IMG/VR virus record: IMGVR_UViG_3300046791_000106
Location: 1-25,603 of that record
Length of the DNA stretch: 25,603 bases
Direction: 5' to 3' (one strand)
Source of the DNA: a virus
Under the pieces are notes generated by a model. It searched no databases, had not been told where the DNA came from, and saw nothing but the letters and a program-made list of their open reading frames with translations. Positions 5,166 through 17,846 of the stretch are shown one piece after another; position 1 is the stretch's first letter; each line of letters opens with the position of its first letter. The position numbers and the translations under genes were made by a program.

Positions 5166-7144
5166 TTCGCGTCTTTCGTCAGGGACGCCACACAGAACGT
5201 GGCGCTACGGCAGGAATAGCTGAGCACATCGACGGCGGTGGCTGAGCCAGTTGTGAGCGATGGCGTAACGCCGCCGGCAAATTTGAAGATCGAGTTCCAA
5301 ACCGTGGTGAAGCTGCCCGCGCCAGATTGAGTGAAGGTGATGGTCCCAGCCTTCCCGGCCGTGACGTTCGAGAGCGTTTGCGTCGTGATATTGGCGGTTA
5401 GGGTTACGTTCGTGTTGATGAAGGTCGCAAAATCGAACGTCGTGGTGGCGCCAAACGTCGTCGTGGTCTCGGCCTGATAAATGATGTTCGGCGGGATCAG
5501 CGTGGTCGACGACGTACCGGCCAGATAGTTCGCACCGGTCGCGATCGCCGCAGTCGCGATATCGGCAAATACCACCTGACCGAATGACGGGTTACCGCCC
5601 GCGTTCCCGTGCAAGAGCGTCGTCGTCGTGCCTTGGTTGGCGAACTGAGCCGAGGCCAGCGTAGCCGTGGTGCACGTTCCGGTGCCGGTCGCAGAAATGG
5701 CCGTCAGGAACTGATTCGTGCAGCTCGTTGTCGTGATGTTGAGATCTGCCGACACGACGGCCCCGAATGTCGGAGCTCCAGCGGCATTGCCATGCAATAC
5801 TGTCGTCGCGGTCCCGAGCGAGCCCAGTGTGGCTGGCGCGGTACCGGCACCGCCGCCAAGAACGAGCGCGTTGGCCGTCAGCAGCGCTGACGATGCCGCC
5901 GATGTCGCGCTATTGAAATAGATGATTCCGCCGCTGGTGCCGACGAACCCGAGCGCTCCAGTCGTGGCATTGAGCGATAGCGGGGTGGCGACGCCGACGG
6001 CGAATGTACCGGAAGTGTTTGGCAGCGTCAGCGTGGGAGACCCGGCGGTAGCCTGCGGCGTGATGGTAACCGTGCCAGACGTATTTCCCGCCAAGCCCAG
6101 CGTGCCGATCGTGGTTCCGGGAATGCCGAGCACCGGAGCCGACGAAGCAGTGACGGTGTTAGCCGTGAGGGACGCCATGACCGTGCCGGCCGCCGTGGTC
6201 GCGGGCCATACCGCCGTCGACCATGCCGGGGTCGCCGTAGCCCCGGACTGGAGCATCTGACGCGCGGTAGCGGTGCCCGCCAGAATCTGGAGTTGCGTAG
6301 CGTTGGACCAGACGATGCCGCCATTGCTCGCCGTGAGGTTGGCGTTCGTGCCGCCGAAATTCAGTGCCAGCGGAGTCGTAAGAGCTACGACACCAGCCGC
6401 GCTTACCGTAATCGGAGCCGTCCCGGTGATCGCGCCACCGCCGCTCGATGTCACGCATGTCGGGCACGTCAGGGCACCAGACGTAGCCCCGAGCACCAAG
6501 GGGCTTGAAGCGCTGACAGCGACCGTGCCAGAGGCTGCGGGGAGACTGACCGTCACGGTACCAAGCGCGCCGGCCACCGGCTGCACAGTGACTATACCCG
6601 ATGTAGCGTTACCAAAACCTAGCGACCCCAACGTACCGGAAGCACCAAGGACCGGGGTTGTCGTGAATGCCGGGCCGGCTCCCGCCAGAACCCCGCCCGC
6701 AAGCCCCGTGATAGAAGCCTGCCCAGTCACGGCGTTAATCGCCAGCGGCGCGGCTGCGGTCCCGACCAACGTGCCTGCCGCAGTCGGCAACAACGAGACC
6801 GCGGAACCCGCCGCCGATTGGGCGCGCAGGATAGCGGTGCCGCCTGTGGTTCCGGCAAGGCCGATCTGGCCCGTAGAAGTACCTGGAATTCCAAGAACCG
6901 GTGCTGTGGTGGCCACCGGAAGCGCCGAAACCGCCGTCGGGTTCCCAAGTACCGTACCGCCAGCAATCGGTGTGGTCCCACCCGGCGGGATCAGGACGGC
7001 CCCAGGAAGGCCCGTAGAGCCCCCCACGTTGCCGCAGAACCGCCCCGCACCAAACTGACCGCCGCACCCGGATTGTGCGCCAGCAGGCCCCGCAAGGGCC
7101 ACGAACAGCCCGGCCAGCGCCAGAAGTCTAGAAAGCCGCATCAT
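5162..7144 (-). CDS. Repeat-built fibre-like protein with signal peptide (660 aa)
   Basis: The ATG ATG start at 7144 overlaps the end of the upstream gene by 17 bases. An earlier alternative start at 7186 would put codons before the signal peptide and is unlikely. Residues 1-24 (MMRLSRLLALAGLFVALAGP, then AGAQ) form a classic Sec signal peptide. The body is Gly/Ala/Thr/Val-rich with at least three repeats of about 60 residues, at 82-142, 164-225 and 337-398. Each reads roughly VLGIPGT..G.LGLAG.TSG, then a short strand, then TLTLP..SGT and a PL.LNATTGAL segment. This is typical of beta-helical phage fibres. A CPTC pair occurs at 227-230. No catalytic motif was recognised. Confidence 0.8.
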   Translation of the reverse strand: MMRLSRLLALAGLFVALAGPAGAQSGCGGQFGAGRFCGNVGGSTGLPGAVLIPPGGTTPIAGGTVLGNPTAVSALPVATTAPVLGIPGTSTGQIGLAGTTGGTAILRAQSAAGSAVSLLPTAAGTLVGTAAAPLAINAVTGQASITGLAGGVLAGAGPAFTTTPVLGASGTLGSLGFGNATSGIVTVQPVAGALGTVTVSLPAASGTVAVSASSPLVLGATSGALTCPTCVTSSGGGAITGTAPITVSAAGVVALTTPLALNFGGTNANLTASNGGIVWSNATQLQILAGTATARQMLQSGATATPAWSTAVWPATTAAGTVMASLTANTVTASSAPVLGIPGTTIGTLGLAGNTSGTVTITPQATAGSPTLTLPNTSGTFAVGVATPLSLNATTGALGFVGTSGGIIYFNSATSAASSALLTANALVLGGGAGTAPATLGSLGTATTVLHGNAAGAPTFGAVVSADLNITTTSCTNQFLTAISATGTGTCTTATLASAQFANQGTTTTLLHGNAGGNPSFGQVVFADIATAAIATGANYLAGTSSTTLIPPNIIYQAETTTTFGATTTFDFATFINTNVTLTANITTQTLSNVTAGKAGTITFTQSGAGSFTTVWNSIFKFAGGVTPSLTTGSATAVDVLSYSCRSATFCVASLTKDAK

Positions 7145-7610
7145 ACCAGCCACCGGAGGCGAGAGGATTAAACCAGAAAAACCCAAACGGATTGTTGATG
7201 ACGACCTGAGTCAGTCCGTCCATAAGCTGACCGCCCGAGAATGTCACCGTGATCGGATTCACATCGGCATCGCCCTTGAGGTCCTTTACCAGAACCGGCA
7301 GAAAATACCCCGCGCTCGGTGCCAAGATGATGGACTCTGGCCCTCCTATCGTCTTGTTCACCAAAATCCGCTGGTCACTTACTAAGGAATTGTACACCGA
7401 CCCCGAGGTGATAAAGACCGGAACCCCGCCGAACAGCGCAACCAATTGCCCAAGCGTAATCGCATAGTTCACGCCCAATTCGGCGGTGCCAGGCGAAACA
7501 ATCTCCAGCAGCGCCGTCGGATCAAACGCGCCGGAGAACGGCGGCAGGTCCGTCATCTGGCCGCCCTGGAAATCGTTCAGCAGCGGGTTCTGTGCGGGGT
7601 TGAACGGCAT
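7128..7610 (-). CDS. Phage tail-region structural protein (160 aa)
   Basis: The ATG at 7610 overlaps the upstream stop as ATGA; the earlier start at 7664 lies inside the upstream gene. Residues 28-80 hold PPFSGAFDPTALLEIVSPG and NYAITLGQLVALFGG, a pattern found in fibre-base proteins just upstream of long fibres. The C-terminal half is beta-rich, with KTIGGPESIIL, ITVTFSGGQLMDG and FGFFWFNPLASGGWYDAAF. It may connect the tail to the fibre encoded next. No domain is firmly recognised. Confidence 0.7.
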   Translation of the reverse strand: MPFNPAQNPLLNDFQGGQMTDLPPFSGAFDPTALLEIVSPGTAELGVNYAITLGQLVALFGGVPVFITSGSVYNSLVSDQRILVNKTIGGPESIILAPSAGYFLPVLVKDLKGDADVNPITVTFSGGQLMDGLTQVVINNPFGFFWFNPLASGGWYDAAF

Positions 7611-7978
7611 CAGTAATCCTGCTGGGTTACGTAGTAGACCGAGGCTTGCAGCGATCTCGAGCATGACGACCGCTGCAGGTACCTCGGCTGTCCACGCTGC
7701 AATAGCCGTGGCCAGATCTCGTCGACCGGATAATTCTCAGGACGTGCCTGAGTGAGTCCGACGGGATCCGGAGACAGAATGTTGGCCCCGAGCTGCCGCT
7801 GTGGCTTGTCGATGTACTTCGGTAGAATCCGAAGATTGAGCGGCAAGAGTTTCAGACCGCGCCACTGGAATTGGTCCTGCGCATTCTCAAGGTTGCCAAT
7901 GAACCCAGTACGGTCACAGGTAAACCAGCCGCGGGGCGATGTCGGGTCGGTTCGGGCCTGTTTGGGATGTCGGCGCAT
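7610..7978 (-). CDS. Conserved small phage protein, degenerate zinc-ribbon type (122 aa)
   Basis: The start is the ATG at 7978, joined to the end of the homing endonuclease gene as TAATG. The protein begins MRRHPKQARTDPTSPRGW and continues FTCDRTGFIGN, then PQRQLGANILSPDP and ARPENYPVDE. I recognise this as a small phage family whose usual members carry two Cys pairs (C..CGF and C..C before a D.PQ.QL segment). Here only the first Cys of the first pair remains, and the second pair is replaced by PKYI, so metal binding is probably lost. The family comparison is from memory and needs an alignment. Location suggests a tail or neck accessory role. Confidence 0.7.
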   Translation of the reverse strand: MRRHPKQARTDPTSPRGWFTCDRTGFIGNLENAQDQFQWRGLKLLPLNLRILPKYIDKPQRQLGANILSPDPVGLTQARPENYPVDEIWPRLLQRGQPRYLQRSSCSRSLQASVYYVTQQDY

Positions 7979-8733
7979 TATGCAAACATCCTCTGCCCGA
8001 CATCTTCGACAAAAGCAAAGTGCTGCCCCTTTGCATGCTTCTGGCCACGATCGTAGCGGCAAACTCTACTGATGGTCCCCTTGTCTACACCAATAGATTC
8101 GGCGGCGCGAGAAGCGCTCCCGTATATAACTCCGGTGTCCAGACAAATAACAGGCTTGCCGCTACGGTTCCTCTGCCTAGGTAACCGTTCACGGGGTATT
8201 GTTGGCCTTTTGCGCCTAGCAACACCTATACTCTCGATTAAGGCGATGGAGTCACGCCGTTGCGCGCTCGTCATGGGGGCTGCAAAATATTGAAAGTGTA
8301 GCCCCCTGCAAGTCGTCGCTACCCCACGACAGATACCGGCTATATTGGAGGGAGACCCGCGTACCGCAGATGCGGCAGCCAGTACGCTCTCATAAACTTT
8401 CCCTGTCTCGAGACATATTACTGGTTTTTTTCGGCCGGCTGGAATAGGAGCCATATTCCCCCCAGCGCAAGCATTGTATTCTGGCTGCCAATCCCTGACC
8501 AAGACAAACTCATGATGGTAGGCCAAAACTCTAAAAGCAAAAGAAGCCACCACCTTCCACTCGAACGCCGACTCTCCATATTTTCTTATCGCCGCATACA
8601 GCCGCGGACATCGCACACTTCCTTGGTGGGCTTGATTGACGTGGCGCGCTTTCCGAGCAGGCAGCCCTTGACCGGTAACGCCAATGTAGCGCTTGCCATT
8701 TACTTTGTTGGTGGCAACGTAAACAACAAACAT
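7978..8733 (-). CDS. GIY-YIG homing endonuclease with two modular DNA-binding repeats (251 aa)
   Basis: The N-terminal GIY-YIG nuclease domain spans residues 1-95. It shows VVYVATNKVNGKRYIG (3-18, the GIY and YIG strands), candidate catalytic R27/R30, E75 in HHEFVLV, and the closing EYNACAGG (85-92). Two intron-encoded-nuclease repeats (NUMOD/IENR1 type) follow at 102-150 and 192-241. Each starts KPVICL[ED]TG..Y.S and ends GLHFQYF or GQHFAFV; they should bind the target site. I chose the ATG at 8733 over a TTG at 8742. This is a free-standing selfish gene inserted between a connector gene and a small structural gene, and its stop overlaps the next start (TAATG). Confidence 0.9.
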   Translation of the reverse strand: MFVVYVATNKVNGKRYIGVTGQGLPARKARHVNQAHQGSVRCPRLYAAIRKYGESAFEWKVVASFAFRVLAYHHEFVLVRDWQPEYNACAGGNMAPIPAGRKKPVICLETGKVYESVLAAASAVRGSPSNIAGICRGVATTCRGLHFQYFAAPMTSAQRRDSIALIESIGVARRKRPTIPRERLPRQRNRSGKPVICLDTGVIYGSASRAAESIGVDKGTISRVCRYDRGQKHAKGQHFAFVEDVGQRMFA

Positions 8734-8751
8734 CCGAGTCAAGCCCTTAAC

Positions 8752-11652: not shown

Positions 11653-12201
11653 TTAAGCTCCAAATCCCAAAGGTACGATCAGCGATGGGTCAACCATCCG
11701 AGGCACCAGTTCCTTCACGCTTCCGTCATGAGCGAATTCACCTTGGAGGCGCTCGGCTGCCGCAACATATGCGGCGTGGGCTGCCTCTTTGGTTCTGAAA
11801 TGTGATCCAAGGCTGATCTGCTTCATTTGATAAGTGATCGAGGCTTGCCACCGGCCCGTCCACTTTCCCTTCCGCATCACCTTGCAAGCACCCTTCAGTC
11901 CGCTTGTGTTCCGTGAGTGCCGCTTTGCATTCGCCGAGTTCTGCGAGTACGTCGCGATCCTCAAATTCTCTATCCGGTTGTCGGCCCTATCCCCGTTAAT
12001 GTGGTCGACTAACCCAACTGGGTCCTCTCCGTAATGGTAGAGCCACGCGAGCCGGTGAGCTAATTGGAGCTTCCCGTTCACTTTGATGTAGCGATAACCA
12101 TTTGCGGTTACTGATCCTGGCTCTGCCTTCCAACTAAAGCGACCCGTCTTGGGATCGTAATCAAAAATCTCTCTCAGATTATCCAATGTGGCTGCAGGCA
12201 T
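11653..12201 (-). CDS. HNH homing endonuclease with AP2 DNA-binding domain (182 aa)
   Basis: The ATG at 12201 has a strong AGGAGA site. Residues 45-90 carry the HNH core: QLAHRLAWLYHYG (H49), then VDHINGDRADNRIENLR (H67, N69, N75, N79). An AP2-type DNA-binding domain follows at about 102-155 (GLKGACKVMRKGKWTGRW, then HFRTKEAAHAAYVAAAE). A short tail DGSVKELVPRMVDPSLIVP ends the protein. This architecture is standard for free-standing phage homing endonucleases. It sits directly after the major capsid gene in an AT-richer pocket (12202-12262), as expected of an insertion. Nucleolytic residues look intact. Confidence 0.92.
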   Translation of the reverse strand: MPAATLDNLREIFDYDPKTGRFSWKAEPGSVTANGYRYIKVNGKLQLAHRLAWLYHYGEDPVGLVDHINGDRADNRIENLRIATYSQNSANAKRHSRNTSGLKGACKVMRKGKWTGRWQASITYQMKQISLGSHFRTKEAAHAAYVAAAERLQGEFAHDGSVKELVPRMVDPSLIVPLGFGA

Positions 12202-12262: not shown

Positions 12263-13177
12263 TCAACTCGTGGGATTTTCTCCCCACGCGGCGCGCGGAT
12301 CGTTGTACCCGAACGAATAGCGCTCGTACGCTTTTACGAGGAGGTTGTCAGTGATATTGTCCACCCACATATCGCTCTCGTAAGGAATACGAAGCATGTG
12401 GATCAGGCCCTCGATGTTCGTTGTGAGGAACCATGCGAAGTTGGACGTGAGGAAGTCCATCACCAGGAATCCTTCGGGAAGGCCGCCGGACAGCGTGAGG
12501 ATGGCGTTGACGTCGTTGTCGGCGGTGCCCGGGCGAAGCTCCGTCTTCATCAGGCGGATGGCGACTTGCTCGAGGTTCGGCGGAACGATCAGCCGTCGGG
12601 CGCGGGACAGGATACGAAGACCGCGCTCGTTCACGAACTGGGTGCGCACGTTGGTCATGTTGGCCAGCAGCGACGATTCGTTCAGGGATTTTGGCACGGT
12701 TGAAGTGTTGGCCCATGTGCCGCCGTCGAAGGGATGGGCGGTGGAGAACAGCGCGACACCGTCGCCGATCTGCGACGAGTTGTAGGTGAAGCCGAGGTTC
12801 AGAACGTTGGCGCCCTGGATTTCCTTGAACTGGGCGAACGCTTCCTGGAGCTTCAGGTTGGTCGGGTTGAATTGCGCCTTGTAGAGGTTGTCGTCGATGG
12901 CCTTGCGGGTGATCGCGTAACCGAGGGCGACCTCGATGTGCACGAAGGCCCAGGTGAAGCGCTCGCCCGCGTTGTTGTCGAACTGGGTCGCGGCGCCTTC
13001 GTCCTTCAGGAACGGCAGAGCGACGAACGCCATCTGGGTCGATCGCTCGACCGCCATCGCGGACTTGTGGGTCTTGAAAACTTTGTCCCACTGACGCGGT
13101 ATCATGTCGTAGGAGCCACGGACGTCGAAGAGGCCGGGCAGGAGTTCGGAGCGGATGCTAGCGAGGGCTACGGGCAT
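12263..13177 (-). CDS. Major capsid protein, Mu gpT-like / HK97 fold (304 aa)
   Basis: The protein has the features of the gpT-like major head subunit family. These are an N-terminal segment followed by FDNNAGERFTWAFVHIEVALGYAITRKAIDD (within residues 66-96), GVALFSTAHPFDGGTWANT (140-158), a helical RTQFVNERGLRILSR, and RRLIVPPNLEQVAIRLMKTE followed by LRPGTADNDVNAI. The C-terminus WVDNITDNLLVKAYERYSFG matches the P-domain strand and helix of the same family. Its length fits. It should form the icosahedral shell around the scaffold. The ATG at 13177 has AAGGA about 10 bases upstream. Confidence 0.88.
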   Translation of the reverse strand: MPVALASIRSELLPGLFDVRGSYDMIPRQWDKVFKTHKSAMAVERSTQMAFVALPFLKDEGAATQFDNNAGERFTWAFVHIEVALGYAITRKAIDDNLYKAQFNPTNLKLQEAFAQFKEIQGANVLNLGFTYNSSQIGDGVALFSTAHPFDGGTWANTSTVPKSLNESSLLANMTNVRTQFVNERGLRILSRARRLIVPPNLEQVAIRLMKTELRPGTADNDVNAILTLSGGLPEGFLVMDFLTSNFAWFLTTNIEGLIHMLRIPYESDMWVDNITDNLLVKAYERYSFGYNDPRAAWGENPTS

Positions 13178-13620: not shown

Positions 13621-14211
13621 TTAAGCCGACCCCGTCATGGTCTTGAACAGCTGGTTGTTGAACGTCACCACAGCCCAGTTAAAGTTGGACGTCGGGTCGG
13701 ACCCGTTACCAATTCCTTGGTACAAACCGTAGACCTGAAACGGCAGTGTGGTGGTGACGCCGCGAGAACCTTGGTCCAACGTCGCACCCGAAAAACCGCC
13801 GCCGACTGTTGAGCCGGTGCCGATATTGTAGTTCATGTTCACGCCGATATCGGTATTGGTGACAGCGGTAAGCAGGGCTGCCGCCAAGAACAGTGCATTC
13901 GGAGCGTTGATGACGTAAGCGGTCGCATCCTGTGCGGCTGCGCCTGGCCAAAACGGAGACCACTGGGGGGTACCACCGCCTACAGGGATATAAACGCAGC
14001 CATCGAAGATGCCGGTAAGTGGGATGGTCGTCACAGCCGAGGCGCCTTGACCGATGTAAGCGGTGGTGCCGACTTTGGTGACAGGGTCACCTCGAAAAAT
14101 CTTGGTAGTATTGGCGGACGATATCAGGCGGGTTGCCATCTGATAGTCAGGAGCGCCACCGGAAAGGAACCCGATATGGCGAAATCCATAAGTTGATTGC
14201 GTGTTGGCCAT
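13621..14211 (-). CDS. Capsid cement-like / decoration protein (196 aa)
   Basis: The protein starts MANTQSTYGFRHIGFLSGGAP, then YQMATRLI and a KIFRGDPVTKVG strand. It continues GIFDGCVYIP, YVINAPNALFLAAA and a Gly-rich end. This ordering (N-terminal G[FL]RP-like segment, a [IV]F.GD.V strand, a GV..G strand and a Y.[VI].[AD][PD]...F strand) matches the Gp24-type structural cement proteins that bind between capsomers in podoviruses. It is the first gene after the promoter at 14376-14405. The AGGGAG site is about 12 bases from the ATG, longer than ideal. Confidence 0.7.
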   Translation of the reverse strand: MANTQSTYGFRHIGFLSGGAPDYQMATRLISSANTTKIFRGDPVTKVGTTAYIGQGASAVTTIPLTGIFDGCVYIPVGGGTPQWSPFWPGAAAQDATAYVINAPNALFLAAALLTAVTNTDIGVNMNYNIGTGSTVGGGFSGATLDQGSRGVTTTLPFQVYGLYQGIGNGSDPTSNFNWAVVTFNNQLFKTMTGSA

Positions 14212-14375
14212 AGCCAGAACCGCTCCCTGTTACGTGGAGGCTGTCAGGCAGGCACTGCCGGATTTGTCGCCTTGGAAACCGCCCAACGCAGGGGCAGTCA
14301 GAGGGTCAGGGAGTCGCTTCGCTGTCGTCTCGACCTAGACCAGATTTTTCCATCGCGTGATGGATGTTGGGTTCC
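14212..14375 (-). other. Untranslated leader of the capsid operon
   Basis: The roughly 160 bases between the proposed promoter and the first capsid-operon gene hold no convincing gene; the longest small frame is 15 codons. A perfect 6-base inverted repeat, tccatc-gcgt-gatgga, sits close after the transcription start (14349-14364). The rest shows no recognised riboswitch. Confidence 0.4.
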
Positions 14376-14405
14376 GCTATACAGCCTAAATAATCATCTC
14401 GTCAA
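14376..14405 (-). promoter_or_regulatory. sigma70-like promoter for the capsid/tail operon
   Basis: On the minus strand a TTGACG -35 box (14400-14405) and a TATAGC -10 box (14376-14381) are separated by 18 bases. It lies directly after the intrinsic terminator and reads toward the cement gene. Predicted start of transcription is near 14369. Confidence 0.6.
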
Positions 14406-14410
14406 TAGCC

Positions 14411-14440
14411 CAACGAAAAGCCGCCCGGCTAAGGGCGGCC
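14411..14440 (-). terminator. Intrinsic terminator ending the accessory cassette
   Basis: On the minus strand a perfect 7-base stem GCCGCCC / GGGCGGC (14433-14439 and 14420-14426) with a 6-base loop TTAGCC is followed by TTTT (14416-14419). It lies about 45 bases after the last gene of the cassette. Confidence 0.8.
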
Positions 14441-14485: not shown

Positions 14486-14701
14486 CTATCGGAGTCGAAA
14501 GTTGGCGAAACCGCCGCCACCTCCAAGGACCATCTGCACGAGCCACAGGATGCAGATCAGGGCTACTATCACCCACAGGATCTGTATGACTTTCGGCGGA
14601 ATTGGCACGCCGAGCACATCCTGTAAAACCCAAATTATCAAATAAATTACCAGCGCGAGAACGCAAACGTAGATCAGGAATGTTATGACTGCCGGGAGCA
14701 T
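14486..14701 (-). CDS. Small two-segment membrane protein (71 aa)
   Basis: The ATG at 14701 has GAGG about 10 bases upstream. Two hydrophobic segments are obvious: about residues 3-27 (VITFLIYVCVLALVIYLIIW) and 38-60 (VIQILWVIVALICILWLVQM). They are joined by a short linker with PIPP, followed by GGGGG and a short basic tail FANFRLR. Two-helix proteins of this size can be holins, but no endolysin is in the window. The cassette context allows a superinfection-exclusion or membrane-anchor role. It is the last gene before the terminator. Confidence 0.7.
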   Translation of the reverse strand: MLPAVITFLIYVCVLALVIYLIIWVLQDVLGVPIPPKVIQILWVIVALICILWLVQMVLGGGGGFANFRLR

Positions 14702-14734
14702 GGCTTGGCCCTCTGATGAATGGGAGCAATGCGC

Positions 14735-14881
14735 CTACGGAACTTTGGTTCCTTCGTTCTCTTGGTGCGCCCGTATCTTCAATGAAATATCCCGCGCTTG
14801 GCAGGATCGAAGCACCGAAAGCGAGGTCAGTGCCACATTGCACAGCGCCGTCATCAAAAGAGCAACTTCGCCCCAACTCAT
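14735..14881 (-). CDS. Tiny single-pass membrane protein (48 aa)
   Basis: The short frame starts with ATG at 14881 and reads MSWGEVALLMTALCNVALTS followed by LSVLRSCQARDISLKIRAHQ and a polar end. One hydrophobic segment (residues 5-24) precedes a basic/polar helix, the layout of a small inner-membrane protein with a cytoplasmic tail. The SD is weak (CCGAG). It fills the gap between two other membrane-protein genes, which supports reality, but it is too short for certainty. Confidence 0.5.
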   Translation of the reverse strand: MSWGEVALLMTALCNVALTSLSVLRSCQARDISLKIRAHQENEGTKVP

Positions 14882-14895
14882 CTCGGTTCAATCCA

Positions 14896-15009
14896 TCACG
14901 GCAAATTTCTGCGGTCCATATACCATGCCCATAACACGATCACGAGTACCGCGCACGTGAACGTCCACCCGAATGCCTCCCACGCCCTCAATGTGCCGGT
15001 AAGTGCCAT
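14896..15009 (-). CDS. Tiny single-pass membrane protein (37 aa)
   Basis: The ATG at 15009 lies one base after the stop of the secreted-protein gene (TGA G ATG). The protein reads MALTGTLRAWEAFGWTFTCA followed by VLVIVLWAWYMDRRNLP: an amphipathic start, one transmembrane helix (about 13-30) and a positively charged C-terminus. A longer frame to 15093 would overlap the upstream gene and is not needed. Function unknown. Confidence 0.55.
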   Translation of the reverse strand: MALTGTLRAWEAFGWTFTCAVLVIVLWAWYMDRRNLP

Positions 15010-15010
15010 C

Positions 15011-15379
15011 TCAAATACCCGTAGGCTGGACGTAGCAGTAGACGTACTGCTGCCGACTAAGAAACAGGACGCCGTGCCCCGTTGGATTCCCACGGTCCCA
15101 TTTCAGCTTGTTGTCCGGCACCTCAATTTCGGTCCCGACATCGACATGCGGCCGGCGCAGCGGTCCGTCGTCCCGGTCGTCGGTAATGGTAACGTAGGTC
15201 TTGCCGCCCCGGACATGGATCTCATCCGCCCAGTAGGCATCTGCGACGCCGCAGCAACTCATGGTGGGGACATCCGGCTGCATCAGCGATTGATACCAAG
15301 CATCCTGCTCGCGGTGGCTCGGGTCGTGGGCAAACACAGGGCTGCACAGCAGCAGCACGATCAATGCGGCGCGCATCAT
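15011..15379 (-). CDS. Secreted periplasmic protein of a Rhizobiales-type family (122 aa)
   Basis: The ATG ATG start at 15379 overlaps the repressor stop as ATGA. A Sec signal peptide (MMRAALIVLLLCSPVFA, then HDPSH) is followed by AWYQSLMQPDVPTMSCCGVAD, a charged middle, and KWDRGNPTGHGVLFLS ending VYCYVQPTGI. I associate the combination WY..L..PD....SCCG..D and NPTGHG[VI]LF with small exported proteins of alphaproteobacteria, notably Rhizobiales. Three Cys (SCC and YCY) could form a disulphide or bind metal. In a phage it looks like a cargo gene acting in the host envelope. The taxonomic link is from memory. Confidence 0.7.
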   Translation of the reverse strand: MMRAALIVLLLCSPVFAHDPSHREQDAWYQSLMQPDVPTMSCCGVADAYWADEIHVRGGKTYVTITDDRDDGPLRRPHVDVGTEIEVPDNKLKWDRGNPTGHGVLFLSRQQYVYCYVQPTGI

Positions 15380-15600
15380 GGTCCTTTTGGCTTGAGGGTG
15401 ATTTCGTAGCCGAGCGCATCGGCCCACAGCTCAAGCGTTTCCAGAGTGGGGCTGCGGTGGCCGGCTTCGACGTAGTAGATTGCTCGGGGGCTAACCCCGC
15501 AGCGTTCCGAAAGGTCTTCTCTCGACAGACCCCAGGCTAAACGGATTTCTTTCAGCGCACCTATTACCTTGGGAGAAGCATTCTTTTCTCGATAGAGCAT
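15376..15600 (-). CDS. Cro/CI (XRE) family helix-turn-helix regulator (74 aa)
   Basis: A compact XRE HTH domain covers residues 13-66: ALKEIRLAWGLSREDLSERC, then GVSPRAIYYVEAGHRSPTLE and TLELWADALGYEI. Helix 2-turn-helix 3 (REDLSERCGVSPRAIYYVE) is well conserved, and there is no further domain. The ATG at 15600 is 28 bases after the methyltransferase stop. It likely controls a promoter locally or in the host. It is not flanked by a divergent promoter, so a classical lysis/lysogeny switch is not supported. Its place within an accessory cassette suggests local control. Confidence 0.85.
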   Translation of the reverse strand: MLYREKNASPKVIGALKEIRLAWGLSREDLSERCGVSPRAIYYVEAGHRSPTLETLELWADALGYEITLKPKGP

Positions 15601-15628
15601 GCCCCGTCCATGGGATTCGTGTGCAGCT

Positions 15629-16462
15629 TTACTCCGTTACAATGCGCTCTTGCGCCTTCATCCAGTTATCCTCTGGACCAAGGAACTCCGGTAGCTGAAA
15701 ACCTACCGCACTAGCCTTAGGTAGTGCAATCAGATTCGCACTCGGGACCACGCCTGGCCAGATATCCATCGGGTTGCCGAAGTGGTTATGAGGGTTGAAA
15801 TACGGCCCCAGCGACCACCACGCGCGGTAGTTGATTCGGTCCAACGCCGCGTTAATACGGCAAGATTCCTCGCCATTGTTCTCGACATAGAGAATAGGAG
15901 AATGCCGGCGGATAGTCTCGGTCGCGCCGTTGAGAACGTCGGCTTCCATCCCTTCCACATCGATCTTGATCAGCGTCGGCGCCAGACCTAGCGAATCAAT
16001 GGTGATCATGGGCGTGGTGATCATATTCGGGGTTTGGGCGAGCAACGGCACCGCCCCGTAGTTGAAGATGGTCTCATCCGGCGGCAGCGCGGCCATCGGC
16101 ACATCGCCGATATAGGGCCCCACGGCCTCCCGCAGGGCCCGCACGTTCGATGTCCCGTTGAGGATGAGGTTGGCCGCCAGGAACCGATAAAGCCGAGGCT
16201 GGGGCTCGAATGCCACGACATGGCCGGTATCCCCGACCATATGGGAAAATGCCAGCGTATGCGTGCCGATGTTGGCACCGACATCGAGGACAATAGCCCC
16301 GATGCCGACTTGGGTTCGAATCAAATCCAGCTCGTACTCGCACCACTCGCCGTATTGGTCCAGCGACCGGCCGATGAACGTGTCATTCCGGCTAAATGCG
16401 AATAGCCCATACTTGCAGCGCTTGATGGCGAAGGGCTGGTTCTGGTCATAGTGGATGGTCAC
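15629..16462 (-). CDS. FkbM-family SAM-dependent methyltransferase (277 aa)
   Basis: The GTG start at 16462 overlaps the HTH gene stop as GTGA; the longer frame to 16561 would run through that gene. The Rossmann SAM-binding motif VLDVGANIGTHTL is at 58-70, the acidic strand end VVAFEPQP at 82-89 and the FkbM signature LIKIDVEGMEADVLNGA at 164-180. The family O-methylates small molecules, sugars or lipids. It acts in the cytoplasm. Adjacent to a glycosyltransferase, it may methylate a glycan on the virion or host surface; this pairing is inference. Confidence 0.9.
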   Translation of the reverse strand: MTIHYDQNQPFAIKRCKYGLFAFSRNDTFIGRSLDQYGEWCEYELDLIRTQVGIGAIVLDVGANIGTHTLAFSHMVGDTGHVVAFEPQPRLYRFLAANLILNGTSNVRALREAVGPYIGDVPMAALPPDETIFNYGAVPLLAQTPNMITTPMITIDSLGLAPTLIKIDVEGMEADVLNGATETIRRHSPILYVENNGEESCRINAALDRINYRAWWSLGPYFNPHNHFGNPMDIWPGVVPSANLIALPKASAVGFQLPEFLGPEDNWMKAQERIVTE

Positions 16463-16677
16463 GCGGCTATTTTGGGCTTGTTGCCGGACTTGGATTGGCG
16501 CATTTTGAATTGCCCGGTTTTGCGTATCCAGTTGCGGACTGTGGACGTATTCACCTTCCATTTATACTCAATTTCGCACAGCGGTTTCCCGAGTAGATAG
16601 TCCGCGCAGGCGCCAATCCTGGTTTCATCAGAGTGATGTACTGGTGGGGCGACGCGGCGGCGCTTGCGGTTTTCCAC
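16459..16677 (-). CDS. Small helix-turn-helix protein (72 aa)
   Basis: The GTG start at 16677 overlaps the glycosyltransferase stop as TAGTG. A longer frame reaching 17076 runs antiparallel in phase with nothing functional and is discarded. The N-terminus is basic (ENRKRRRVAPP). The core RIGACADYLLGKPLCEIEYK then WKVNTSTVRNWIRKTGQ is a homeodomain-like HTH of the kind seen in small terminase-type and transposase-type DNA binders. The C-terminal tail is basic (FKMRQSKSGNKPK). It probably binds DNA. It is coupled on both sides (TAGTG and GTGA), so it is part of the cassette. Confidence 0.75.
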   Translation of the reverse strand: MENRKRRRVAPPVHHSDETRIGACADYLLGKPLCEIEYKWKVNTSTVRNWIRKTGQFKMRQSKSGNKPKIAA

Positions 16678-17390
16678 TATTCTGCCGCCTGTTGCAGCTT
16701 CTCGACCGCCGCCTTCTCTTCGGCCCACTTCGCATAGCAGGCCTTGAATGAATGCGGCCCGACATGCTCGATTTCGTACCCGCCCGCGCCCCACACCGTC
16801 CCGCCGCACTTCTCCCAGCGCCAGCAGAACGAGATGTCCTCCGACATCAGGTGGCCTTCGTCGTTCCGGCACTTCTCGAACGCGCGAATCATCCGGCCCT
16901 CGGGATGGATAGAGGGGTCCATCAACGCCGTGTCGATGATACCGGGGAATTGCTCGATGATCTGGTCGACCGCATCGCGCCGGATGAGAAAGCAGCCCAT
17001 CCCGAGACCGCGCACCTTCATGAAATGGCCCTTGCCGCCGGCATTGGGATCCTTGCCCCACCCCGAGGCCGCCCATTCGATATCCAGGCTTTTCTTCGGG
17101 TAGATCACGCCCACCATGGGTTCATTCAGTGCGAGCATGTCGACCACCACCTCAGGCGGGAAACCCATGTCCGCGTCGATCATCAGCAGATGGCTGGATC
17201 CCTTCATGCCGTCGTACCACGCCGTGAGCATGGCGTTCCTAACCTCGACAATATCCGGGCTGGATGATGTCGTGATCGCTACCGAGTGCCCCTTCTGGTG
17301 GAGCATCGGTACCATGCGATGAGTGGCCATGAACGTGGCGAGGGTGATCTGGCCGCCATATGCAGGCACGTAGCAGAGAATATTTGCCAT
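16677..17390 (-). CDS. GT-A type glycosyltransferase (237 aa)
   Basis: The protein opens with MANILCYVPAYGGQITLATF and has the nucleotide-sugar DxD element in HLLMIDADMGFPPEVV (DAD, residues 72-74). GVIYPKK follows, then a conserved C-terminal SEDISFCWRWEKCGG (around 183-197). This is the phage and bacterial GT2-like family often used to glycosylate surface or virion components. No membrane segment is seen. The ATG at 17390 lies 6 bases after the upstream stop with no clear SD, so reinitiation is likely. It is the first gene of the accessory cassette. Confidence 0.82.
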   Translation of the reverse strand: MANILCYVPAYGGQITLATFMATHRMVPMLHQKGHSVAITTSSSPDIVEVRNAMLTAWYDGMKGSSHLLMIDADMGFPPEVVVDMLALNEPMVGVIYPKKSLDIEWAASGWGKDPNAGGKGHFMKVRGLGMGCFLIRRDAVDQIIEQFPGIIDTALMDPSIHPEGRMIRAFEKCRNDEGHLMSEDISFCWRWEKCGGTVWGAGGYEIEHVGPHSFKACYAKWAEEKAAVEKLQQAAE

Positions 17391-17396
17391 TTTAAT

Positions 17397-17660
17397 TTAA
17401 GCCCCTGATTCCACGATTTTCGAAGGCCACACCTGTTCCCCCATATCAGCATTAGGAACAACCTGCCCGCAGTCACAAACTTTCCACGCAAAGTTGGGGT
17501 ACCATTCGGTTAATTTATTCAACATATCCCCATATGCCTGGACTTTCCCGCATGCAAACAGTTCTGGCTGAGGAAGCCCCCACGGCCATGATTGCCACTC
17601 AATTAAAATGCCCGAATTAAAGATTTCCTCTAATGTGGAATCGCCAGATATATCTGCCAT
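17397..17660 (-). CDS. Small hypothetical protein with CDCG motif (87 aa)
   Basis: The ATG at 17660 directly abuts the upstream TAG. The protein is tryptophan-rich (EWQSWPWGLP, LTEWYPNFAW, EQVWPSK) and carries KVCDCGQVV near residues 60-68 plus one earlier Cys (ELFACGK). The Cys spacing is too sparse for a confident zinc finger. The acidic N-terminus (MADISGDSTLEEIF) resembles small phage proteins of unknown role. It sits between the 61-residue gene and the glycosyltransferase. Confidence 0.6.
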   Translation of the reverse strand: MADISGDSTLEEIFNSGILIEWQSWPWGLPQPELFACGKVQAYGDMLNKLTEWYPNFAWKVCDCGQVVPNADMGEQVWPSKIVESGA

Positions 17661-17846
17661 CTATTTTCGCAGCCTTGTATCAAACAATTCTTTAACCGAA
17701 CCCTTCGGTTCCTTGATGGCGCTGCGGTCTTTACGCTCAGACTTTTCCGCCTCCATCTTCTCAAGAAACCGAGCCCGAGGGCTTTTCGTGGCATGGCCAG
17801 ATACGTAGTGCTTGTGACTTCCCATCCCACCACGGCCTGAATGCAT
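17661..17846 (-). CDS. Small basic hypothetical protein (61 aa)
   Basis: The ATG at 17846 has a strong GGAGGGG site in the end of the upstream gene. The N-terminus is Gly/His-rich (MHSGRGGMGSHKHYVSGH) and the remainder is highly charged: RARFLEKMEAEKSERKDR, then EPKGSVKELFDTRLRK. It looks like a short helical, possibly nucleic-acid or head-interior binding protein. No family is recognised. Confidence 0.6.
   Translation of the reverse strand: MHSGRGGMGSHKHYVSGHATKSPRARFLEKMEAEKSERKDRSAIKEPKGSVKELFDTRLRK

Follow-up and report, generated by a model that had tools for sequence, protein, structure and literature searches.

Why would a phage keep genes for a glycosyltransferase and a methyltransferase among the genes that build its head? 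The question is raised by the IMG/VR virus fragment IMGVR_UViG_3300046791_000106, analysed over its whole length of 25,603 nt (25.6 kb; hereafter the window), where a glycosyltransferase gene (GT) and the gene of an FkbM-family methyltransferase (FkbM) lie, like all genes discussed here, on the minus strand. A sequence-only reading of this DNA had drawn eight genes together into one cassette that could modify a glycan on the virion or on the host envelope. Comparison with related phages points to a narrower answer: the interval is quite probably a phage virion-glycosylation locus, in which a capsid protein would be glycosylated in the cytosol and its sugar then O-methylated, joined by passenger genes. 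Two genes carry this reading:

16677–17390, minus strand: GT, 237 amino acids (aa), a predicted GT-A-fold glycosyltransferase with the C-terminus ...KLQQAAE and, judging by its relatives, a core gene of the phage clade
15629–16462, minus strand: FkbM, 277 aa, an FkbM-family methyltransferase with a GTG start, the partner of GT

Relatives were gathered by a capsid-protein scan, which gave 80 loci at 88–94% identity, many on contigs of ~70 kb; some of these loci are near-duplicates, and their genes were called by a simple script. In every one of the 34 related loci covering the interval, GT is flanked by the same pair of head genes, and its divergence tracks that of the head genes (r 0.64–0.76 between GT and head-gene distances, against r 0.58–0.79 for head genes among themselves). 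By these comparisons GT is a core gene of the phage clade and not cargo. Its distance to the gene of a cement-like capsid protein varies from 212 bases to 6 kb across the relatives, and the surrounding interval is therefore an insertion hotspot. The GTG starts of the block, previously taken as a mark that sets it apart from the head genes, lose this meaning: the cement gene also starts with GTG in many relatives, so that GTG starts are no argument for a foreign origin of GT.

The structure model of GT (AlphaFold2, AF2; pLDDT 92.3, pTM 0.90) retrieved 981 chains at a Z score of at least 5 in a fold search, with glycosyltransferases in the top rows. The nearest folds are A197 of Sulfolobus turreted icosahedral virus (STIV; Z 17.1), the glycosyltransferase domain of LH3 (16.4), Mnn9 (14.5), mimivirus R699 (14.4) and COLGALT1 (14.3); absence of a family from the fold-search lists was given no weight. 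All 46 homologues keep D72 and D74 (a DxD motif, D72-A-D74), S183-E184-D185 and H209 unchanged; read from the fold, the DxD would be a metal motif and the acidic residues catalytic. With this fold and the conserved DxD, the protein is confidently predicted to be a GT-A-fold glycosyltransferase. No named glycosyltransferase family of Pfam or NCBIfam matched above cut-off, and its only PHROG matches were phrog_1574 (function unknown) and a weak glycosyltransferase PHROG.

FkbM matches PF05050 with 61.7 bits (cut-off 22.7) and TIGR01444 with 98.2 bits (cut-off 37.7), and its S-adenosylmethionine (SAM) motif VLDVGANIG and IKIDVEGME are both intact; by family and motif it is an FkbM-family methyltransferase. 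The gene lies beside GT in about a dozen contigs. The two form a single open reading frame (ORF) in about five relatives (L004, L005, L006, L007 and L008/L009), Pfam confirming the FkbM domain within the L006 fusion; FkbM precedes GT in L003, L010, L011 and L012, and overlaps it as a broken gene in L022. Among the arrangements described, only the window has a small helix-turn-helix (HTH) gene between the two. All 13 GT-linked FkbM sequences fall into one clade (support 100/96), recovered in 100% of 200 bootstrap trees. On these trees and arrangements GT and FkbM are a genuine pair, co-inherited and repeatedly fused. As a side observation, the closest FkbM-carrying relative (L105, 4181–8700) has a broken FkbM and a transposase-like gene inserted downstream in the hotspot.

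A recurring feature of the family is its C-terminus, which is Ala-Ala-Glu (AAE) in 28 of 53 GT ORFs as well as in the GT of the window, while many others end in LPAA or QSAA. In the GT–FkbM fusions it is the FkbM part that carries the tail (QAAE; QSAA in L006) at its end. It is present in 6/6 fused and 0/6 unfused FkbM rows (Fisher p 0.002); two of the fused rows are near-copies, so that five versus five is the fairer count. Seventeen codon combinations encode the AAE tail, which argues for selection at the protein level and rules out a DNA-level signal. Of 1550 open frames with 120 codons or more in the surroundings of the capsid gene, 31 end in AAE, all of them GT or a fusion, and a few unrelated AAE-ending frames occur elsewhere in two ~70-kb genomes.

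What GT would act on is suggested by its neighbours. On the upstream side come the portal, a gene for a groES-like protein (Cpn10), the gene in scaffold position and two head-block genes that are conserved; downstream, a cement-like protein of 196 aa is followed by a small protein and the gpT-like major capsid protein. The location between head genes described by the sequence-only reading is thus borne out, with scaffold-position/groES-like genes on one side and the cement-like and capsid genes on the other. The candidate acceptors are:

13621–14211, minus strand: capsid cement (decoration)-like protein, 196 aa, AF2 pLDDT 83.3; candidate glycan acceptor
12263–13177, minus strand: major capsid protein, Mu gpT-like, 304 aa, PF10124 27.6 bits, phrog_371 major head protein; alternative acceptor

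The model of the cement-like protein, of fair confidence (pLDDT 83), has its matches among cement proteins of phage capsids (HFTV1 Z 9.3, Sf11 8.1, TW1 7.8, T1 7.6). While the head genes are expressed, soluble GT would act in the cytosol, transferring a sugar from a nucleoside diphosphate (NDP)-sugar to a capsid protein, for which the cement-like and the major capsid protein are the likeliest candidates; FkbM would then O-methylate the transferred sugar, and the glycan might serve shielding or adsorption. We infer that a capsid protein is the acceptor, which sugar is donated, that this sugar and not protein is methylated, what the benefit is and that virions carry a glycan at all.

Similar placements are found outside the clade. 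Three other phages have a GT-family gene behind a coat gene of the P22 type: in L085 (5647–8711) the coat gene is succeeded by an MptE-like (DUF115) gene and a GT relative, in MW202573 the GT relative has a methyltransferase beside it, and in MW202691 it is part of an ORF, possibly a fusion, whose methyltransferase match is weak and sub-threshold. The association of GT with coat genes therefore recurs with an unrelated coat-protein lineage. In Xanthobacteraceae/Bradyrhizobium (L175, 2643–16712, and L176) distant GT relatives have as neighbours a type I secretion system, a giant RTX adhesin and a BTLCP protease, which points to protein acceptors. As to the host, a matching contig (L174) was binned as Rhizobiales. 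Taken together, the core GT, the dedicated FkbM, the fusions, the cement and capsid neighbours and the like placement in unrelated phages argue for a glycan modification linked to the virion.

Several observations weigh against this. The acceptor was picked from gene position alone, and in a mirror-tree comparison GT co-varies with the cement protein (r 0.64) no more closely than with the rest of the head genes. The substrates that FkbM enzymes methylate are varied, small molecules as well as sugars. The GT family is not restricted to head modules, since distant relatives also lie near replication genes (clamp-loader genes of large T4-like phages). The cultured, distant phages HTVC023P, CRP-902, QDWS535 and Pag-Yong1 have the same head order and no GT at this place. 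In the environmental genome MW202675 (60% capsid identity) the head order is likewise kept and GT is absent at the position.

The downstream limit of the hotspot is marked by two elements:

14419–14440, minus strand: intrinsic terminator, an 8-bp stem with 7 G-C pairs, then TTTTCGTT; closes the variable interval
14365–14405, minus strand: promoter-like TTGACG-N18-TATAGC box, starting at −194, of the cement/capsid operon; follows the terminator

The strong terminator reported at the end of the block is real, and in six loci (the window, L093, L098, L101, L105 and L128) a terminator end falls between −206 and −223 relative to the cement gene. A TTGAC box precedes the cement gene in 53 of 59 loci (shuffled sequences: 18%) and mostly lies between −185 and −205; a sigma-70 scan called no promoter, owing to its strict −10 rule, and the box is nonetheless conserved. 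Terminator and conserved box together indicate that the hotspot ends at an apparent operon boundary, a position that plausibly explains why it tolerates insertions.

In the relatives the hotspot contains a second GT, SAM methyltransferases and sugar-pathway-like genes. Six loci (L092, L097, L112, L117, L148 and L166) have HldE-like, GmhA-like, transketolase/thiamine pyrophosphate (TPP) and radical SAM genes between the genes that flank GT, and the HldE/GmhA-like genes of these ~70-kb soil phages may form a heptose-like sugar pathway, their matches lying below equivalog cut-offs. An alternative, amino-sugar-like cassette in L110, L118 and L163 consists of a DegT aminotransferase, a cupin-like gene (labelled by eye) and a NeuD-type acetyltransferase. 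Exact sugars are not claimed, because the cassette matches are below NCBIfam equivalog cut-offs. Fifteen of the 34 spanning loci showed no tailoring cassette, L105 being counted among them as its FkbM is broken. The hotspot of L120 holds, at 7081–8385, a TROVE (Ro60-like) domain protein.

A more ambitious reading, which we offer tentatively and regard as somewhat doubtful, is that of a large clade of soil phages with a fixed hotspot in which a core capsid GT, always present, is combined with interchangeable cassettes, giving switchable glycan 'serotypes', and in which the AAE tail docks GT on the assembling head. The cassette states would then be none; FkbM, often fused; the HldE/GmhA/transketolase/radical-SAM heptose-like set; and the DegT/cupin/NeuD-like amino-sugar set.

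The same cassettes can be turned towards another target, as genes of the FkbM, heptose and amino-sugar kinds are typical of surface polysaccharide loci. GT and FkbM would in that case modify the host envelope (lipopolysaccharide, LPS, or capsule) and thereby prevent superinfection or re-adsorption, in the manner of serotype conversion, and the HldE-, GmhA-, DegT- and NeuD-like genes in the hotspots of relatives, together with a secreted protein (SEC) and a membrane protein (M3) of the interval that could act in the envelope, would be in keeping with it. Serotype-conversion cassettes, however, have a flippase and a membrane-bound GT, both absent from the block, where the three hydrophobic ORFs M1–M3 (37–71 aa) are too short for either; GT and FkbM have no membrane segment and, from sequence, are both soluble. 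The genes stand in the head-gene block, from which superinfection blocking would come late, and a tyrosine integrase was not found in four ~70-kb relatives. Furthermore, the folds nearest to GT belong to glycosyltransferases of proteins and to a viral enzyme with a proposed capsid target, and the family follows coat genes in P22-like phages. Action on the host envelope is thus unlikely, and of the two glycan targets first suggested it is the virion that the core GT, its FkbM partner, the fusions and the placement favour.

That GT might act instead on hypermodified phage DNA for restriction evasion is far less probable still. Phage glycosyltransferases often modify DNA (reviewed in PMC12619734), and the distant relatives near clamp-loader genes of large T4-like phages would suit such a role, but in the window GT sits with cement and capsid genes, and an FkbM partner and heptose cassettes are out of keeping with a DNA target. 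In the four ~70-kb relatives a base-modifying gene of the thymidylate-synthase family is absent, other routes to modified bases not having been searched.

The remaining genes of the interval bear on whether the block is a unit:

16459–16677, minus strand: HTH, small helix-turn-helix protein, 72 aa, GTG start, between GT and FkbM
15376–15600, minus strand: XRE, XRE/Cro-type regulator, 74 aa, HTH_3 54.7 bits; passenger
15011–15379, minus strand: SEC, secreted protein with an N-terminal signal-like segment, 122 aa; passenger
14896–15009, minus strand: M1, hydrophobic ORF with a single segment, 37 aa; weak gene call
14735–14881, minus strand: M2, hydrophobic ORF with a single segment, 48 aa; weak gene call
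14486–14701, minus strand: M3, strongly hydrophobic membrane protein with a glycine-rich tail, 71 aa; cargo family
17397–17660, minus strand: small protein of the same variable interval; its 44% relative in L101 lies at another place in the locus
17661–17846, minus strand: small basic protein of the same variable interval; no relatives found

The eight genes, their coordinates and their overlaps are as previously described, and with the two small genes at 17846–17661 and 17660–17397 the variable interval comprises ten. The GTG start of HTH overlaps the GT stop as TAGTG, that of FkbM overlaps the HTH stop as GTGA, and the start of SEC overlaps the XRE stop as ATGA. In base composition GT (0.605), FkbM (0.579) and SEC (0.610) resemble the head genes; HTH, XRE, M1–M3 and the two small genes upstream have lower values (0.489–0.556), which fits, if weakly, a later insertion of the latter. 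Elsewhere in the window, ORFs at 7978–8742 and 11653–12201 look by eye like GIY-YIG and HNH homing endonucleases and flank head–tail genes.

HTH had no relatives in a search of viral contigs, only sub-threshold family matches; the idea that it is a remnant of a GT–FkbM linker was rejected, as the fusion linkers, compared by eye, are unlike it. XRE was not found in related phages, nor were relatives of M1 and M2. SEC has relatives (57–77%) in 13 unrelated phage contigs (L254–L266) that carry no other gene of the interval, one of them beside an endolysin, and an envelope or lysis role of this family is possible. A few relatives have an M3 family member (69–79%) immediately before the cement gene, and the family also occurs in 15 contigs without other head genes of the window. 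By their distribution HTH, XRE, SEC, M1, M2 and M3 are separate insertions that have accumulated between GT and the capsid promoter.

A single co-adapted cassette, in which HTH and XRE would regulate and SEC and M1–M3 export or anchor the product, is accordingly hard to credit. Overlapping starts and one common terminator had suggested it, yet gene overlaps are common in compact phage genomes, and the six accessory genes either lack counterparts in the relatives (HTH, XRE, M1, M2) or turn up in unrelated phages without the rest (SEC, M3), so that what recurs together is GT and FkbM alone. The opposite extreme, eight chance passengers among which GT and FkbM have no joint function, draws on the highly variable hotspot content and is just as improbable: it holds for the other six genes and is contradicted for GT and FkbM by a GT missing from none of the 34 spanning loci, by the fusions and by the dedicated FkbM clade.

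The virion-glycosylation reading would have wider consequences. To our knowledge, glycosylation of the virion in bacterial viruses has been demonstrated in few systems, chiefly mycobacteriophages. In the present case a GT-A enzyme belongs, as far as gene comparison can tell, to the core head-block genes of a widespread clade of soil phages, and is accompanied by a methyltransferase dedicated to it and by donor-sugar cassettes that can be swapped. Phages of this family probably coat their own shell in sugars; if so, many uncultured phages build and vary their own sugar coat. Loci with GT only, GT and FkbM, a GT–FkbM fusion, or GT and heptose genes offer natural comparison groups for the function of such a coat, and the recurring C-terminal AAE is a concrete handle on how GT finds its target.

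Among known systems, the head order itself (GroES-like/scaffold/cement/gpT-like capsid) is shared with HTVC023P-type pelagiphages, Roseobacter phages CRP-901/902 and Planktothrix phage Pag-Yong1, which differ in having neither GT nor a hotspot at the position; in HTVC023P a distant GT relative lies at another place in the genome. LH3 and COLGALT1, like mimivirus R699, belong to the same fold neighbourhood (Z 14–16), and the first two act on proteins; they differ in being multidomain eukaryotic or giant-virus proteins with about 6–17% identity. The closest fold, STIV A197 (PDB 2c0n, Z 17.1), is also a minimal GT-A enzyme, from a virus with a glycosylated capsid protein; it is essential and has been proposed to glycosylate that protein (PMC10551542). 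It differs in identity (18%) and in belonging to an archaeal double-jelly-roll virus, its acceptor is likewise unproven, and the passages of PMC10551542 on A197 mention no methyltransferase partner.

The nearest analogue in gene arrangement is found in the Cluster O mycobacteriophages (Corndog, Catdawg), reported with the order portal, O-methyltransferase, glycosyltransferases, protease, capsid (PMC4351075). The sequence-only reading knew of no described system with this exact gene set; these phages are a described analogue, with other enzymes. With Catdawg as representative, compared by its protein sequences, three Catdawg GTs aligned to the GT profile with a probability under 1% (hhalign), and its methyltransferase is of the TylF type, without BLASTP similarity to the FkbM enzyme here. 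The head lineage also differs, the enzymes show no detectable sequence homology, and the passages on Cluster O describe neither GT–FkbM fusions nor swappable donor-sugar cassettes. Shared are soluble GT and O-methyltransferase genes among head genes; (methylated) capsid glycans are proposed or shown there and predicted here. Glycosylation of the capsid or tail tube is reported for Corndog, Che8 and Myrna (Freeman 2023, cited in PMC12363180; also PMC12619734), and a GT gene among structural genes, as in virion glycosylation of the Corndog/Che8 kind, is present in 34/34 spanning loci. By analogy, the GT/FkbM locus may do, with enzymes of no detectable sequence similarity, what the Corndog/Catdawg system does.

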